IMG/VR virus record: IMGVR_UViG_3300044619_002061
Span: 1-20,627 of that record
Source: a virus
Reading direction: 5' to 3' (one strand)
DNA: 20,627 bases
In this document: piece after piece, positions 6,909 to 17,963 of the stretch
Position numbering within the stretch: the stretch's first letter is position 1
Layout of the letters: each line of letters opens with the position of its first letter
Translations under genes and position numbers: made by a program
The notes under the pieces: generated by a model
What the model was told of the DNA's origin: nothing
Databases searched by the model: none
Seen by the model: only the letters and a program-made list of their open reading frames with translations

Positions 6909-7598
6909 CTAGATGATGCCTGCGTTGAACAGCAGGAAGTCAGGCACGGAACCGCTGCCGCTCGGTGTTGACCACGAAAGCGTGCCCGTGCCGTTGGTCG
7001 TGAGGACTTGCCCGTTGCTCCCTGCGGTGGCAGGCAAAGTCAGAAAGACATTGGAAGTGATCTCGTTTGCGGCTAGAAGCGTTACAGAGTGCGACTGATT
7101 GGCGTCCCAAAGTGAAATCTGCGGGGCTCGCAGACCGACTTCCGCAGTGAACTCTGTGGCCTCACAGGCAATCCTGTTATTGGCTTCATCCACGACGAAC
7201 CGGATGCTGTCTCGTTGAAGCAGACCGTCCCCGATCACCACCTTGCCGCCGTTTGCCTGCATCAAGTTCAACTGTCGTGAACTGTTTCCGGTACGGGCGA
7301 TGGTCGTATGCGTCGTGTCGTTTGTGACTTGCAGCGAACCAGCCGTCAGCGTGCCTGCCGATGCATCGAAGGTGAGGGTGCTGCTGTCCGTGAGTGCCCC
7401 GGTTGACGAAGACAACTGGATGCGGGTCGATGCGCCGCTGTTGCTGCTTGCCGCACGGCGCGTCAACTCATGCGTGTTCGTGCCGTCCCCGACGAACAGC
7501 GTCTTGTCGGTCGTGTTGACGGCAAGTTCCCCGGCCTGCAATCCCGATGGGACTGCGCTTGCCGTGGAACTGCGCTTGGTGCGGATCGTGTTCGGCAT
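6909..7598 (-). CDS. Tail fibre protein 2, 229 aa, shares N-terminus with the large fibre
   Basis: Starts MPNTIRTKRSSTASAVPSG then LQAGELAVNTTDKTLFVGDG, the N-terminal fibre module 'RIKR...L-x-x-GELA-x-N...TL-(F/Y)-G' used by many tail fibre proteins. The next gene upstream, the 711-aa fibre, starts with the same module, and the first 29 coding bases match at all but two. The rest is beta-repeat-like (ASTRIQLSSSTGALTDSSTLTF, LNLMQANGGKVVIGDG) and ends with the fibre motif GSNGQVLTTNGTGTLSWST. It starts three bases after the preceding stop and has no Shine-Dalgarno, so it probably depends on coupling. Likely a shorter paralogous receptor-binding or fibre-extension protein. Confidence 0.82.
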   Translation of the reverse strand: MPNTIRTKRSSTASAVPSGLQAGELAVNTTDKTLFVGDGTNTHELTRRAASSNSGASTRIQLSSSTGALTDSSTLTFDASAGTLTAGSLQVTNDTTHTTIARTGNSSRQLNLMQANGGKVVIGDGLLQRDSIRFVVDEANNRIACEATEFTAEVGLRAPQISLWDANQSHSVTLLAANEITSNVFLTLPATAGSNGQVLTTNGTGTLSWSTPSGSGSVPDFLLFNAGII

Positions 7599-7601
7599 GA
7601 A

Positions 7602-9737
7602 TCAGAAGGTACCGCCGTCAAGGACGATGCCGTCGATGGTGCCGCCCGTGATGCTCACATTGGACGCCGCCTGCGTGGACATCGTGCCGAGCCCGGTGAT
7701 GTCCGTGTTCGGGATCGTGGCCGCAGCGGTCATCGCGCTCGTGCCGTTGCCCTTCACATAGCCCGTGAGCGTGGTCGCCCCCGTGCCGCCGAACCCGACC
7801 GCAAGGGTTGCGGACAGCCCTGCCGCAGTGCCCGTGATGTTGCTGTCAAGGAAAGCGAAGGTCTTGGTGGACGAAACGCTGTTTCGGAACTTGATCGCCG
7901 TGCCCGTAGACCACACATCGCCCGCAACAGGCGAGGTTGGATCGATGCCCGTGGCGATGTTGAAGGAAGCGTCCGAAGCGGTCGATGCAGCAAAGAAGAC
8001 TTCGCCGACCGTCAGCGTCCCGGCCTTGACGAAATCCGTTCCGGCGGTCGCCGTGAGGATCGCGCTCGTGCCGTTGCCCTTCAGCAGCGCACCCGCCGTG
8101 AAAGAGGTTGCGCCCGTGCCGCCCTGCGCCGGGGACACGGTGGCGGTGAGGTTGCCAAGGTCTGCCCACAGGATGCGGTTGTTCTTGGACGCATCGCGCA
8201 GGAACAGGTTGCCGCCGTTGTTCCAAAAGTCACCCGTGACCGGGGAAGTGGGATCCTGAGTGCCCTGCGGGATGTTGTAAGGCGCGGTGGTGTCACTCGC
8301 CTTCATCGTGATCTTGCCCGACATGGTGCCGCCGCTGCTGCGCGACAGGGCACCATCGGCGACATCCTTTGCGGCCTTGACGGCGGTAGCGGTCGCCGCA
8401 AGCGTGCTCGAAGTCGTGGATGCAGAATCCGTCAACTGCACGATGCCCGCTGCCGAGGTAGACGCGACTACCGCCGGGGAGGTCGTGACCGAAGTGACAC
8501 GGCCATAGCCATCGGTGGCAACCGCCGACACGAACGAAGTGCCTGCGGAGCCCGTGGGCGTGGTCGTGGTGACGGTCGCAAGGTCAACGCCGGAACCGCT
8601 GACGGCAATCCGGGCCGCGTTCGCGGACAGCACGGACAGCGTGTTGCCCGTCTTGGTCAGGCCGTTGCCTGCCGTGATCTGACCCGCACCGCTGAACTGC
8701 GTGAAGGTGATGGCCGTCGTGCCGACTGTGATCGGCTCGTTGGTCGTGCAGATCCATCCTGAGTCTGCGTTGGTGGATCCTTCCTCAACGAACTCAAAGG
8801 ACGCCGGGAACTCCGACGCCTGATCCATGTCCGTGGCGCGAGTCAGCACGAACGGCGCTCCGGCGCTGCCCGTGTTCGTCACGACATAGACACCGTTCTG
8901 AAGTTGCGACGCATCCTGATTCTTGACGAGGATGCGGTCGTTCGTAGCGACCGTAACTCCATCGACGGTCAGCGCCCCGTTCGCGGTTGCCGTCAGGGTT
9001 GCGCCGACACCGCTGCTGCCGTTTGCGTAGGTGCAGGTCGGAAGCGCCGCAGCGGTAGCCATTCGGCACGAGGTGTGCGTGTGGATGCCCTGCGCGGTCG
9101 TATCGACATAGTTCTTCGTTGCGGCATCCGAAGCGTTGATCGGCTCGGACAGGCTCGTGATTCTGAAGTTCGACAGCGACAGGTTGCCGCCGATGTTCAG
9201 GAAGTTGATCGACGGGACATCGTCAGCGACCAGTGCGCGGAAAGTCGGCGCCGCACTAGAACCAATGCTCGGTCCGGCGAAAATCTGATTCGCTGGTTGC
9301 GCGGCAAGCGTGCCCGTCAGAGTGCCCGAGGTCGTGACCGGGCTGTTGGAGACCGAGATGAAGGACGGGAGCGACAGGCCGACGCTCGTGACCGTGCCCG
9401 TGCCGAATCCGGTGGTCTTGGAAACGACGAACGCGGTGGTGGCGACCGTTGTGTCGTTGCTGCCCGTGCCCGGAGTCGTGGCGGTCGCCGACGATCCGAG
9501 GCTGACGGTGCCGCTGAAGGTCTTGTTCCCGGTGATCGTCTGCGTCTCTGCCAGCGCGACAAACGAACCGACGCCTGCGATAGCGGGGCGAGTAGTCGCC
9601 ACTCCGCTGCCGTTGTCGCCGCGCCCGTAGTACAGCGTGTTGTCCACATCGTTGAATGCGAGCTCGCCTGACTGAAGGCTGGCGGGTGCCCCGGCATTTC
9701 CGGTGTTTCTGCGCTTGATGCGAATCGTGTTCGGCAT
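7602..9737 (-). CDS. Large tail fibre protein, 711 aa
   Basis: N-terminal module MPNTIRIKRR...LQSGELAFNDVDNTLYYG (1-40), likely docking to the tail. Then DAATKNYVD (204-212), typical of phage fibres; a beta domain with ALTVDGVTVATNDRILVKNQ (255-274) and NGVYVV; SVLSANAARIAVS; and two tandem modules at about 471-571 and 572-672, each with DPTSPV-x-GD-x-W and GGTGAT...KGNGTSA. It ends DGGTF. Ser/Thr/Ala/Gly-rich repetitive composition fits a trimeric beta-structured fibre. AGGAG precedes the ATG at 9737. The upstream 121-aa gene also ends in DGGTF, and its junction with this gene is repeated at the next boundary. Host-recognition fibre is a confident class call; the receptor is unknown. Confidence 0.88.
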   Translation of the reverse strand: MPNTIRIKRRNTGNAGAPASLQSGELAFNDVDNTLYYGRGDNGSGVATTRPAIAGVGSFVALAETQTITGNKTFSGTVSLGSSATATTPGTGSNDTTVATTAFVVSKTTGFGTGTVTSVGLSLPSFISVSNSPVTTSGTLTGTLAAQPANQIFAGPSIGSSAAPTFRALVADDVPSINFLNIGGNLSLSNFRITSLSEPINASDAATKNYVDTTAQGIHTHTSCRMATAAALPTCTYANGSSGVGATLTATANGALTVDGVTVATNDRILVKNQDASQLQNGVYVVTNTGSAGAPFVLTRATDMDQASEFPASFEFVEEGSTNADSGWICTTNEPITVGTTAITFTQFSGAGQITAGNGLTKTGNTLSVLSANAARIAVSGSGVDLATVTTTTPTGSAGTSFVSAVATDGYGRVTSVTTSPAVVASTSAAGIVQLTDSASTTSSTLAATATAVKAAKDVADGALSRSSGGTMSGKITMKASDTTAPYNIPQGTQDPTSPVTGDFWNNGGNLFLRDASKNNRILWADLGNLTATVSPAQGGTGATSFTAGALLKGNGTSAILTATAGTDFVKAGTLTVGEVFFAASTASDASFNIATGIDPTSPVAGDVWSTGTAIKFRNSVSSTKTFAFLDSNITGTAAGLSATLAVGFGGTGATTLTGYVKGNGTSAMTAAATIPNTDITGLGTMSTQAASNVSITGGTIDGIVLDGGTF

Positions 9738-13626: not shown

Positions 13627-15485
13627 GCGAGATATGCCGGACGAGCTCCGACCGAGTAGCCCTGTCCGGTAGTGGAGGCGACGAGGACCGACGCACTAGT
13701 CGCCTGCATATCCGTGTCGTAGCCGAGCGACAACGGGGGCTGCACCTCGAGCGATGGGCTCCACCACGTACGGATCGAACTCGAAGTCGCGTAGCCGTTG
13801 CTCGTAGTGCCACCGCCGTCGTACGCGAGCAGCGTGCGCGTATAGACGCCCGTGAACGTTCGATTGCCGTTCTGGTCGATGGCCCCGAAGTTGGTCTTCC
13901 AATCATCCTCGAGGACCACGAATCCGGCAGGGATTGGCCTCATGATCCGGTTCGGGGGCTTGTTGATGCGCTTGATCTCCATGCGCTCGGTGATGACCAC
14001 CGACGGCTTCCCGTTCTGGAACACGAAGTCCGACCCTTCCGTGTAAAGCGTTTGCAGCCTGTGCATCCGGGTCTTGCTGTTCACGTGGGTGTGGCTGCTC
14101 GCTGCCTCGACGGTCTCGATCGGTCGCGTCGTCCCCTGCTCCGACCCACCCACCGCGATCGTCATCTTGTTCGCGAACGGCCCGACATTCATGACCGCGT
14201 TCACCGAAATGAGATCCGTCGCCGGGGCGATGATCGTGATGACCGGGGCGGCCGGAGAGACAGCAGTCTGCGTGAAGGCCTCGACGGCAGCGCGAGCGAT
14301 CTCGCTCGGGGCCGCAGTCTTGCCGCTCAGCGTGTTTCCCTCCCAGTGCGGATAAGCCCAGTAGGAGTTGGTAGGCGTGCCATACGGGTCGATGACCTGC
14401 GAGTTGGCGCGAGCCATCGTGAAGTTCTTGCCGATGTACTGCGCCATCGGGACGGCGATCGTGGTCGCCCCGGGAGTATTCAGTTCGATGGCAGTCGCAA
14501 GCGCCTCCGCTTCGAGCTCAAACCGGATCTTCGACCTCTTGAGCAACTGCATCTCCTGAACCACCATGCGGGAGATCAGGCATTGATCGAAGCGGATGCG
14601 CGACTGCGCGAGAACGACCGCACCCCAGATCAGGCGGCGTACATCCCCGTCAACGGGTCCTTCGAGCTCGCATTCGAACCGAACGATGGCGAGCGCAAGC
14701 GATGAGCGCTTTCTCTCGTACGAGTAGTCGGCGGTGCCTGCATACGCGCCGTCCGGCAACTGCACACGCGCTTGCGAGTCAACGATCTCGTAGGTCAGTG
14801 CGGTCCCGGCCTCGTTGACCGCAAAAGTCTGGGACTCCCTTCGCCAGATCTTCCCCTCCGGGATGATCGGCAGGCAGACGCGGCGGAACAGGTCTGCCCA
14901 CGCAGCGATGTCGTTCGTATACGCCAGCGTTCCGTCCTTCGCTGGCTCGAACTCCGTTCCGTTCGCGGAGATGTCGATCGACAGGGTTCCCCGGACGGTT
15001 CGAGTGATGAGTCCGCCTGCGTCCAGCGAGAATGACTGCGTCCAGCAGTGTGCGATCGGTGCGTATGTCTGAGTCGCAAGCCCCCCATACCAACTGCGCC
15101 GCTCCGTCACGTGCGCGGCGATGGTGAACGTTGCGACCGCCGCACGCACGCCAACGATCTCGGTCACGGACAGCGTCAGGAACGGGCCCTGCCGCGAGTC
15201 TTCGGGGATGTAGTAGAACTCCTCCCCCCCGATCTCGATCAGCACGTCTTCGATCTTGCCGGGGCCGTCGATGGAGACCGCTTGCAGGGCCTCGTACAGA
15301 TCGGGCGGCGTCTGCTCTCCGAACACGCACGTACCAGAGATCGTCAGGGCGATCTCCTGAATCGTTCGTCCGTCCGGCGCATACTCCGGACGCTCATTGA
15401 AGTCCGTGATCGTGCAGAATGGCAGCACATAGTTCCTGCCGTTGGACGAATACGTGATCGTGGCGTTTCCTGTCGGCATCGGCAT
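13623..15485 (-). CDS. Large tail/baseplate protein A, 620 aa (distal-tail candidate)
   Basis: Start overlaps the tape-measure stop (TGATG); a second ATG two codons later is possible. N-terminus GNATITYSSNGRNYVLPFCT then EIALTISGTCVFGE, with later GPFLTLSVTEIVGVRAAVAT and LSLDI-like strands, gives a beta-barrel/sandwich look. Residues about 265-330 contain a charged helical part (YERKRSSLALAIVRFECELE, RMVVQEMQLLKRSKIRFELE). The C-terminal third has IKRINKPPNRIMRPIPAGFV and a Ser/Thr/Gly-rich end. The location directly after the tape measure is where distal tail and hub proteins are usually coded. Homology is not recognised from motifs alone, so function is inferred from order and fold appearance. 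Confidence 0.68.
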   Translation of the reverse strand: MPMPTGNATITYSSNGRNYVLPFCTITDFNERPEYAPDGRTIQEIALTISGTCVFGEQTPPDLYEALQAVSIDGPGKIEDVLIEIGGEEFYYIPEDSRQGPFLTLSVTEIVGVRAAVATFTIAAHVTERRSWYGGLATQTYAPIAHCWTQSFSLDAGGLITRTVRGTLSIDISANGTEFEPAKDGTLAYTNDIAAWADLFRRVCLPIIPEGKIWRRESQTFAVNEAGTALTYEIVDSQARVQLPDGAYAGTADYSYERKRSSLALAIVRFECELEGPVDGDVRRLIWGAVVLAQSRIRFDQCLISRMVVQEMQLLKRSKIRFELEAEALATAIELNTPGATTIAVPMAQYIGKNFTMARANSQVIDPYGTPTNSYWAYPHWEGNTLSGKTAAPSEIARAAVEAFTQTAVSPAAPVITIIAPATDLISVNAVMNVGPFANKMTIAVGGSEQGTTRPIETVEAASSHTHVNSKTRMHRLQTLYTEGSDFVFQNGKPSVVITERMEIKRINKPPNRIMRPIPAGFVVLEDDWKTNFGAIDQNGNRTFTGVYTRTLLAYDGGGTTSNGYATSSSIRTWWSPSLEVQPPLSLGYDTDMQATSASVLVASTTGQGYSVGARPAYLA

Positions 15486-16507
15486 CAGATTGGTACTCCC
15501 ATGAACCGCAGGTCCTGCAGGAACGGCTGGTTGCTGTCCGAGATCTCGTCCTTGGACGTATTGCGCTTGATCTGCGACACGTCCCGGCCGATCTGGTCAA
15601 TGGTGTCTCCGGATGCCTCAAGCGCCTTGAACATCGCAGCCATCGCCGGATTGCCTGCCGCAAACATCTTCATCAGCGGATGGCTGTAGATGCCCTTCAC
15701 GAATCGGCCGATCATCGAGATCAACCCGCCCGGGCCTCCGATCGCCTGCATGATTCCCTCGATCCCCCGGATGAGGAAGTCAACGCCTCCGATCAGGGCC
15801 TTGGTCATGAGGATGACCAGCGGTCCGAAGTTGTGGGTGAGGCTGGTCTTCAGGCGCATGAACGCGGCGTCCAGAAGTGCCTGCGTCTGAACCTGCTTGC
15901 CGAGCAGAGCTCCGACTTCGGCGTTCGCTCGCAACTGCGCTTTCAGTTTCGTGAGCTGCGCGATTGCGTCTCCGAGCGCGATCTGCGGGCTGATGTCCCG
16001 GAGGGAATCAGTCAAGCCCTCCATGATCTCGCGAACCTTCTTGAGCGCCTGATACGCTACGTAGGCCGCAGATCCGATGGCAGCAATCGCAATCGCGACC
16101 GGGATGGCGATCTTCCCCAAGAACAGGAGTGACCGGGCCATCACTCCGCCGGGCCCAAGAAGACCCGCCGTGTGCCTGCCGATACCGTGCAACGCGCCTC
16201 CCCTCTGCATCGCCTTGCCGATCGCGCCATCCGGCCCCATGATCTTGGCCATGCTTGCCCGGAGGGACCCAAATGCCTGCCTCGTCGCGGATTCCGGAGA
16301 CAGAACGTCTCCGACGTTTCGGAGCGTCGGCTGTCGCAGGAACCCAGACACTTCGGAACCAGCGCGCAGGCGCTGCTCGTTGATCCCGAGCAGCCTGCTC
16401 ATCAGGCTGGTGGGCTTGGCCGCATCGGTCGGGCTGAACAACTCGCCGCCGCCGCCGCCGCCCTTCTCGTTGATGTTGATGTCGATTTGCCCGAGATCGG
16501 TTGCCAT
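15485..16507 (-). CDS. Short tail tape-measure protein candidate, 340 aa
   Basis: ATG at 16507, one base after the previous stop (an earlier ATG at 16531 would overlap by 23 bases). N-terminus has ININEKGGGGGGELF (six glycines from (GCC)n codons), then a helical, Arg/Ala-rich region, a strong membrane-like segment at about 126-153 (SLLFLGKIAIPVAIAIAAIG onward), a long helix with LTKLKAQLRANAEVGALLGK, and a second hydrophobic stretch at 230-260. Helix-rich make-up with internal hydrophobic segments and its place after the chaperone genes suit a tape measure, which sets tail length and helps DNA entry. It is short: by the usual 0.15 nm per residue, the tail would be about 50 nm. A tail-tip membrane protein with the real tape measure elsewhere is less likely. 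Confidence 0.7.
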   Translation of the reverse strand: MATDLGQIDININEKGGGGGGELFSPTDAAKPTSLMSRLLGINEQRLRAGSEVSGFLRQPTLRNVGDVLSPESATRQAFGSLRASMAKIMGPDGAIGKAMQRGGALHGIGRHTAGLLGPGGVMARSLLFLGKIAIPVAIAIAAIGSAAYVAYQALKKVREIMEGLTDSLRDISPQIALGDAIAQLTKLKAQLRANAEVGALLGKQVQTQALLDAAFMRLKTSLTHNFGPLVILMTKALIGGVDFLIRGIEGIMQAIGGPGGLISMIGRFVKGIYSHPLMKMFAAGNPAMAAMFKALEASGDTIDQIGRDVSQIKRNTSKDEISDSNQPFLQDLRFMGVPI

Positions 16508-16508
16508 C

Positions 16509-16961
16509 TCAGTACCCCCACTCCGGCGCATACGCGCACCCGAAAGTCTCGGTCGCTCGCATCCAGCCCTCGAGCTCCGAGACCGCTTCGACCGTTCCGC
16601 CGTTCCTCCACACCATCGGGATCGTGAGCGTGTTGTTCAGCCTGTTCCCGTTCAGGAGGATCCGGAGTCCCTCGACGAACTGCTCGACGCCGTCATCCCC
16701 GCCGATGCGGATGCTCGCCTGTGCCACGGGATCGAGGAGATTCCTCCACCACACCACGATGTCGATCGTGACCTCAACGAGCGCGGCACCGCTCTTGGGG
16801 TGCATCGCCGCATCCCCGCGAGGGATGATCTGGACGGCGTAAGGTGCCGTCACCGCCTCGTTCGGGCCTTCGGTGAGGTAGACCTGATCGCCCCACCCGC
16901 GCTGCGACATCCATGCGCGGATCTCGGACTGCAGTTCGTCCCAGACGGCGTTGCTGTTCAT
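16509..16961 (-). CDS. Tail terminator-like minor tail protein, 150 aa
   Basis: Overlaps the end of the frameshifted chaperone frame by four bases (ATGA). Begins MNSNAVWDELQSEIRAWMSQ, then RGWGDQVYLTEGPNEAV, YAVQIIPRGDAAMHPKSG and a long strand VEVTIDIVVWWRNLLDPVAQ. The order helix, 'Y-x-x-x-x-x-P' strand, SG-x-x-x-x-EV-x-x-I-x-(I/V)W strand recalls DUF3168/gpU-type tail terminators, which cap the tail tube and join the head. It also has VEGLRILLNGNRLNNTLTIP and a C-terminal strand with aromatic WGY. Its position behind the chaperone, not ahead of the tube, is unusual, so another minor tail role is possible. Confidence 0.6.
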   Translation of the reverse strand: MNSNAVWDELQSEIRAWMSQRGWGDQVYLTEGPNEAVTAPYAVQIIPRGDAAMHPKSGAALVEVTIDIVVWWRNLLDPVAQASIRIGGDDGVEQFVEGLRILLNGNRLNNTLTIPMVWRNGGTVEAVSELEGWMRATETFGCAYAPEWGY

Positions 16962-17466
16962 TGTGATGCCGCCCGGGCGTGCTGCGCCCTGATGCGTGCG
17001 GCGAATGCCAGAGACGCATCCCCGGTCGCGATATGGAGAACGTGCTCAAGCGTCTTCTCGTCCCCGAAGGCCGCGGAGATTCCCTGCATGAGGGATAGCG
17101 CGACTCGCGCCTCGATCATGGGGATGTTCAAGGCAAGTCCCATGGCGGTCGTCTCGTCGAACTCCGAGGGGAGGCGACCGTAGGCCGCCAAGAATCTGGC
17201 CGCTCCCCTCAGGCGTTTCCCGCCGAGAGCGCAGCGGTCGTCATCCTCTGGAAGAAGGCGAACAACTCCGCGTCGCTGCACTTGTTCGCGACCTCTGGAG
17301 TCCGGCTGCACTTTCGGATTGCCGCAACAGCCTGCTCGGGCGTAGGATTCTCCACGCCCTGCTTGTGCATCTCATACATCATCTCCGTCAACTGCACGGC
17401 CATCTGGCCATGCGACGTCTCGATGAGGAACAGGAGCGGATCTTCGGCTAGGGTGAGGTTTGGCAT
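16958..17466 (-). CDS. Tail assembly chaperone GT (-1 frameshift product)
   Basis: Predicted 169-residue product: 84 residues of G are read, the ribosome slips back one base on GGGAAAC (17221-17215), and translation continues in the -1 frame from CGC at 17215 to a TGA at 16958-16960. The T part (RLRGAARFLAAYGRLPSEFD, LNIPMIEARVALSLM, TLEHVLHIATGDASLAFAAR) is helical and has no usable start or ribosome site of its own near the junction; the open frame merely extends upstream inside G. In lambda, G and GT bind the tape measure and tail-tube subunits during tail assembly and are not in the virion. The gene sits between tube and tape-measure genes, exactly where this pair is expected. Confidence 0.82.
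17166..17221 (-). promoter_or_regulatory. Programmed -1 frameshift site (GGGAAAC plus stem)
   Basis: In the G frame the codons are gcG GGA AAC gcc TGA, giving a canonical X XXY YYZ heptamer (17221-17215) two codons ahead of the stop; lambda uses GGGAAAG at the same place. After a 4-base spacer, GAGGGGAG (17210-17203) pairs perfectly with CTCCCCTC (17173-17166), with two possible extra pairs (one wobble), a plausible stimulatory stem. The -1 frame is open for 85 more codons. Confidence 0.82.
17209..17466 (-). CDS. Tail assembly chaperone G, 85 aa
   Basis: ATG at 17466 shares its first base with the tail-tube stop (TAATG). Residues: MPNLTLAEDPLLFLIETSHG, then QMAVQLTEMMYEMHKQGV, PTPEQAVAAIRKCSRTPEV and a helix AELFAFFQRMTTAALSAGNA. 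It is a short, all-helical, acidic/Met-rich protein with the size and location of a lambda gpG-type chaperone, ending two codons after a slippery heptamer. The longer GT form shares the first 84 residues. The upstream part of the open frame (to 17748) lies inside the tube gene and is not protein-like. Main role: keep tape measure and tube subunits competent for tail assembly. Confidence 0.82.
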   Translation of the reverse strand: MPNLTLAEDPLLFLIETSHGQMAVQLTEMMYEMHKQGVENPTPEQAVAAIRKCSRTPEVANKCSDAELFAFFQRMTTAALSAGNA

Positions 17467-17963
17467 TACGTGATCGCAGCGTAGGTGCAGAGTTGGCCGT
17501 TGTTGTCCGGGATCGCACGGAACGTGATCGCGAGCCTCCGCTCCACGTTCCCGAAGTTGGAATCGCTCGTGTCGTTCATGAGGTAACAGCGGGTGAACGT
17601 GTAACCCGCCTGCGTCGCCTCGACCGGAGCGAGCTGCACTCCGAAGACCCGAGGGGTGGCGTTGTTGACCATCATCGTCCCGATGTCGGCCGTGAAGGCC
17701 GCTCCGCGCTGATGCGCCTGCAGCGCTTCCCAAATCTCGACATCCCACTTCACGAGCGTCACGGTGATGGTGGCGCTGATGCCCTGAAGGACGAGCTCCT
17801 CAGGAACCGCGCCGCTCGCGCTGGTCTTGATCTCGTGGATGTGATCCGTGATCGTCACGCTCGGCAGCGTGTCGTTGTCGGCCATTCCGAGATCGACGTA
17901 CGTGCCTGCGGTCGTCGCAACCTTCAGCATCGTAGGTCCGGAGACGGTGAATGATGTCGCCAT
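17466..17963 (-). CDS. Major tail tube protein
   Basis: 165 residues, starting with an ATG that overlaps the previous stop (TAATG). Beta-rich throughout: MATSFTVSGPTMLKVATTAG, YVDLGMADNDTLPSVTITDH, then ISATITVTLVKWDVEIWEAL, a long loop before RVFGVQLAPVEATQAGYTFT and a final RRLAITFRAIPDNNG strand. Size and the alternation of strands with one helix (KWDVEIWEALQAHQRG) match siphovirus tube subunits, which stack as hexamers around the tape measure. The immediate downstream gene is the G/GT chaperone pair, the usual order. No other tube candidate exists in the window. Confidence 0.78.
   Translation of the reverse strand: MATSFTVSGPTMLKVATTAGTYVDLGMADNDTLPSVTITDHIHEIKTSASGAVPEELVLQGISATITVTLVKWDVEIWEALQAHQRGAAFTADIGTMMVNNATPRVFGVQLAPVEATQAGYTFTRCYLMNDTSDSNFGNVERRLAITFRAIPDNNGQLCTYAAIT

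Follow-up and report, generated by a model that had tools for sequence, protein, structure and literature searches.

The window analysed here is the entire IMG/VR virus record IMGVR_UViG_3300044619_002061 (20,627 bp). Its structural genes all lie on the minus strand in the order capsid, adaptor, neck, tail-tube-like gene, G, T, a 150-aa gene and a tape-measure candidate. The capsid gene (20242-19205), a Mu gp36-like adaptor (19137-18649) and the neck protein (18640-17963) have clear family matches. The putative tail-tube-like gene upstream of G (17466-17963) is named by its position, which is the same in the relatives, and its sole PHROG match is weak ("protein with Ig domain", E 0.004). The putative tape measure protein, which is short (348 aa, 15485-16531), is likewise named by its position and a weak PHROG match to tail length tape measure proteins (E 0.011), and the tube and tape-measure identities are therefore put forward tentatively. 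The G/T pair sits between these two genes, as a lambda-type G/GT cassette requires. One extra gene, which follows T directly (150 aa, 16509-16961, minus strand) and is conserved at this place in the relatives, separates T from the tape-measure candidate; it has no family match in PHROGs or Pfam.

Several features of the surrounding genes are recorded here as side observations. The 150-aa gene may encode a tail terminator or a tail completion protein at an atypical location. The 348-aa tape-measure candidate is hardly conserved and was detected in 4 of the 80 capsid-anchored loci described below, where the capsid is at most 89% identical outside the near-identical contig; this suggests a short tail and rapidly changing tail-length genes. 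In one relative (L054:5807-6791) the tail-tube-like gene is doubled in tandem directly before G, with copies that are 46.6% and 47.6% identical to that of the window. Elsewhere in the window (6909-9737, minus strand), two successive genes of 711 and 229 aa open with nearly the same peptide (MPNTIRIKRRNT and MPNTIRTKRSST) and are perhaps paralogous tail fibre genes with a common anchor segment.

The G frame (17209-17466, minus strand) starts with an ATG that overlaps the upstream gene's stop codon (TAATG) and encodes an 85-aa product, the predicted short form of a tail assembly chaperone. Its 3' end reads GCG GGA AAC GCC TGA. This contains the slippery heptamer GGGAAAC (17215-17221), which is read in phase as G_GGA_AAC and is followed by a single GCC codon (17214-17212) and the TGA stop (17209-17211). 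The T frame (16958-17221), which lies in the -1 frame, stays open for 85 codons beyond the heptamer, and its stop (16960-16958) overlaps the start of the next gene (ATGA). A shift at the heptamer would join G residues 1-84 to 85 further residues, yielding a predicted G-T fusion of 169 aa. Downstream of the heptamer, two arms (GAGGGGAG, 17203-17210, and CTCCCCTC, 17166-17173, minus strand) are perfect complements and can form an 8-bp stem composed entirely of G/C pairs that begins 4 nt past GGGAAAC. An earlier note on this DNA had proposed a -1 frameshift at this place, and its positions for the heptamer, frames and stem (17221-16958, minus strand), the phase of GGGAAAC before the G stop and the length of the open -1 frame are all right. 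Judged from the window alone, chance is barely disfavoured and the case is weak, as GGGAAAC occurs five times in the window versus 2.2 expected.

The relatives provide the stronger evidence. Direct searches with G, the upstream gene and a 620-aa gene gave nothing beyond one near-identical contig, and the capsid protein was the productive anchor. It retrieved 80 loci (61-100% identity), 56 of which carry T, and G is detectable in nearly all of these 56. Further relatives were added by profile searches with T and G. The related set comprises 107 contigs with both frames and the same gene order, of which 54 are distinct at <95% identity; the capsid- and G-based searches made no selection for the slip site. 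G homologues lie directly behind a tail-tube-like gene in the relatives. Neither G nor the capsid had a match among annotated phages, and the capsid had none in bacterial or archaeal genomes.

The earlier note had named the lack of an in-phase heptamer in relatives as evidence against its reading. An in-phase X_XXY_YYZ heptamer is found just 5' of the G stop in 107 of 107 contigs (GGGAAAC in 86, GGGAAAA in 20 and AAAAAAC in one). The last of these, L073, lacks GGGAAAC and carries A_AAA_AAC at exactly the same place. Two loci without a readable slip site (L056 and L209) are truncated by the contig end. In each of the 54 distinct relatives, 0 or 3 nt separate the heptamer from the G stop. The base preceding GGA is a G in 53 of 54, despite a codon that varies between GCG, TCG, CAG, AAG, GTG and CTG. 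The slip-site glycine is encoded by GGA at every site that bears one, versus 25 of 158 glycine codons (16%) elsewhere in G. Where the slip site holds a lysine, its codon is AAA in 12 of 12 cases, and the upstream lysine codons of G are AAG 87 times versus AAA 14 times. The cassette may thus suit hosts where AAG does not permit slippage, such as those with two lysine tRNAs, since the lambda heptamer GGGAAAG is used in none of the 107 contigs though AAG outnumbers AAA six to one among the lysine codons of G. As a side observation, the lysine tRNAs of the hosts may be behind the avoidance of AAG at the slip site. With the relatives taken into account, chance is excluded on comparative grounds by the in-phase heptamer in all contigs, the enforced GGA and the covariation of the stem.

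The stem of the window is less striking by itself. Its 8 bp are better than expected after synonymous reshuffling of the T-frame codons (p about 0.02), the local fold energy is ordinary (z -1.05), and the inner stem in a 9-bp register does no better than the reshuffled sequences (p 0.67). The T-frame region past the heptamer aligns gap-free in the relatives, and base pairs can thus be taken directly from the alignment columns. Numbered from the heptamer start (from 0), position i pairs with position 66-i. In the outer six pairs (14-19 with 47-52), 93.8% of cells hold a standard pair, and the same 6-bp stem slid by one to three columns is 30-58% paired. The conserved stem begins 6-7 nt past the heptamer. 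The 4-nt gap of the earlier note is therefore exact for the window, where two extra outer pairs (GA/TC) shorten the distance, but these pairs are not general in the relatives. RNAalifold alone proposes the outer 6 bp only, and in a longer 12-bp stem the inner pairs hold in fewer sequences. The distance between stem and heptamer stays fixed even where the G stop moves.

Covariation across the 54 distinct sequences backs what had been a candidate stem in a single genome. Two-sided changes in the outer stem occupy 57 cells versus 17.8 ± 3.1 in shuffles, and 0 of 500 shuffles reached as high a value. The pair types seen are CG/GC/AU, AU/GC/GU, GC/AU/UA and CG/UG/UA. In some of the pairs, one partner is a coding position and the other is synonymous. 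Of 30 sequences in which T codon 17 (Leu or Pro) is four-fold degenerate, 28 have a wobble base there that is Watson-Crick complementary to the middle base of codon 6 (Fisher p 8e-7, uncorrected for relatedness). In the sequences with a C in the middle of codon 17, codon 6 always ends in G (12 of 12). Judging from these alignments, protein-level selection or protein co-evolution does not explain the matching of the wobble positions. Not every two-sided change arose independently across the relatives. A tree of the capsid protein implies 8 to 17 changes for the variable pairs (at least 13 for columns 31/61), which thus arose repeatedly. Independent-pair tests mostly agree in direction with too few pairs for significance, and that for columns 32/60 gave no clear outcome. 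Few stems are broken; in L066/L138 and L072 the stem is bulged or broken, so that the hairpin may be dispensable in some relatives. As a side observation, in two further relatives (L069:3434-3535 and L070:11003-11104) the stem appears to be kept three bases out of the usual register (GGCGACCG / CGGTCGCC), perhaps through a register slip of the conserved hairpin.

A frameshift that is real but not stimulated by the hairpin is the alternative that survives best, though it is considered unlikely. The stem would then mostly reflect protein constraint or serve another role, such as stabilising the mRNA, keeping independent initiation of T low or coupling to the next gene. The stem region does encode a T peptide that is conserved (GKRLRAxARFLAxYGRLP), the stem is broken in a few relatives, lambda has no comparable stem, and some tailed phages seem to do without stimulators (PMC5009743). 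Against this alternative, wobble bases at synonymous sites follow the other arm of the stem, and the stem keeps its distance from the heptamer while the stop codon moves. The 6-7 nt spacing of the relatives also falls inside the 5-9 nt reported for -1 frameshift stimulators (PMC8211752; PMC5009743), with the window at 4 nt if its two outer pairs form. A hairpin that stimulates the shift is the preferred reading.

The T frame behaves as a coding sequence that is fused to G. Its identity to the relatives is 45-55% across the whole frame, beginning at the heptamer, and that of G is lower (32-45%). The dN/dS of T is 0.07-0.19 for close non-identical pairs and has a median of 0.41 over more divergent pairs, where saturation makes the estimate unreliable. 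By these comparative measures, the T frame is under purifying selection, and G and T are both conserved as proteins. A T protein made mainly on its own from an internal in-frame start codon is very improbable. Its possible starts are a start-like codon 27 in 50 of the 54 distinct relatives and, in the window, a TTG at T codon 11 with a purine-rich stretch before it. In nine of the 54, however, the T frame lacks any ATG, GTG or TTG between the preceding stop and the end of T codon 20, which agrees with the proposal of the earlier note that T is not independently started. A start at codon 27 would leave the strongly conserved peptide upstream of it, from the heptamer on, and the invariant heptamer with its enforced GGA without a reason. 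A shorter internal product from codon 27 is possible beside the fusion and would miss the well-conserved first third of T.

Transcriptional rather than ribosomal slippage as the source of the longer product is more improbable still. The six-A run in the AAAAAAC of L073 could favour it, but the runs in GGGAAAC are just three bases long, ribosomes are themselves known to slip at A_AAA_AAC (PMC5009743), and a downstream stem at ribosomal spacing fits slippage of the ribosome. That a true indel or a sequencing error splits one gene into two frames, which would look alike in a single metagenome contig, can practically be dismissed, because the two-frame arrangement and its in-phase heptamer recur in all relatives from many samples.

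Neither protein resembles a named family. G and T have no match to a named family in PHROGs or Pfam, tail-chaperone families included, and profile searches of PDB sequences gave nothing for T and weak, chance-like matches to deaminases and designed repeats for G. AlphaFold2 models built with the relatives are all-helical for T (pLDDT 92) and start with a β-hairpin that is followed by helices for G (pLDDT 87). Foldseek and VIA-align comparisons with solved structures returned no convincing fold; the best VIA Z was 5.4 to 3fgx, which is below the trust level of the tool. The best viral-model match of G is unnamed (TM 0.72, E 2.7e-3). As neither G nor T matches a family or a solved structure, their predicted chaperone identity is based on gene order and architecture.

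Taken together, the locus very probably encodes a lambda-type G/GT programmed -1 ribosomal frameshift that gives a tail-chaperone G-T fusion, as the conserved heptamer, the selection on T and its startless versions in nine relatives indicate. The majority of ribosomes would terminate at the TGA one codon past the heptamer, releasing the 85-aa G protein. A fraction would slip at G_GGA_AAC, where the P- and A-site tRNAs re-pair with GGG and AAA, and would continue in the T frame to yield the 169-aa fusion. From its position, the hairpin could pause the ribosome while the P and A sites cover the slip site, and it most likely raises the rate of slippage. By analogy to lambda, G may coat the tape measure protein and the T part may recruit the tail tube. 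The odds are about even that the relatives form a clade of uncultured tailed phages that, unlike lambda, combine a heptamer with a non-AAG A-site codon and a conserved, covarying stimulatory hairpin.

A sizeable phage group that is absent from the annotated collections searched would thereby join the G/GT frameshift class. Its fusion product is likely overlooked by ordinary gene callers. The 54 distinct cassettes constitute an evolutionary data set with natural variation in heptamer, stop position and hairpin, and they raise the testable question of whether a hairpin keeps the chaperone ratio in some phages and the slip site alone does so in others.

Slippage by -1 that gives two protein versions from one gene is well known in phages, and other frameshifts in bacteria, among them those of dnaX and IS911, are known to have stimulatory structures. 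The closest comparison is the lambda G/GT cassette. Both lie between the tail tube and the tape measure genes, have an X_XXY_YYZ heptamer close to the G terminus where the -1 shift takes place, and fuse G to a C-terminal T domain, and the heptamers differ by one base. In contrast to the window, lambda uses GGGAAAG, its G stop lies 22 nt from the heptamer start, and its T reading frame is followed immediately by H, with no extra gene in between. A control with the lambda sequence found no stem of >3 bp at the corresponding spacing. The earlier note, which had described a lambda-like cassette with another last base and a stem, was thus correct about the place and the stem, but the other last base is no novelty, as GGGAAAC has been reported for HCTV-1 (PMC5009743).

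In the gpG/gpGT pair of TP901-1, the -1 shift also occurs at a GGGAAA-type site (PMC4493119), with the difference that the heptamer is GGGAAAG; the likeness is drawn from the published description alone. Both products are needed for its tails, and a permanent fusion leads to non-infectious particles (PMC4493119). A set ratio of the two products is needed in lambda and TP901-1 alike (PMC4493119; PMC5009743). For the g-t genes of two haloarchaeal tailed viruses, HCTV-1 and HCTV-2, shifts are reported at G_GGA_AAC and A_AAA_AAC, both of which are among the three heptamers found here (PMC5009743); no mention of a hairpin was found in the text consulted. These viruses differ in their archaeal hosts and are likened by the published heptamers alone. 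The tail assembly chaperone of the actinobacteriophage Bush shifts by -1 at GGGAAAA, the second heptamer of the relatives (PMC11749239); Bush belongs to another named cluster and is likened by its published heptamer alone. Outside phages, E. coli dnaX shares a heptamer with a simple downstream stem-loop in bacterial translation (PMC5009743), with the differences being an A_AAA_AAG site, an extra upstream Shine-Dalgarno stimulator and another gene and purpose.

The slip site itself is therefore ordinary, since GGGAAAC, AAAAAAC, GGGAAAA and GGGAAAG have all been reported or seen in other phages and viruses. A review states that certain tailed phages seem to shift without the help of stimulatory signals, and it also lists -1 pseudoknots used by bacterial ribosomes (PMC5009743). 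Given these stimulator-free phages and the stemless lambda, the clade-wide covarying hairpin is the less ordinary part of the cassette, with an earlier report being possible beyond the open-licence literature searched. Given the structures of dnaX and IS911 and the bacterial pseudoknots, it would represent a further use of a known principle rather than a new one.
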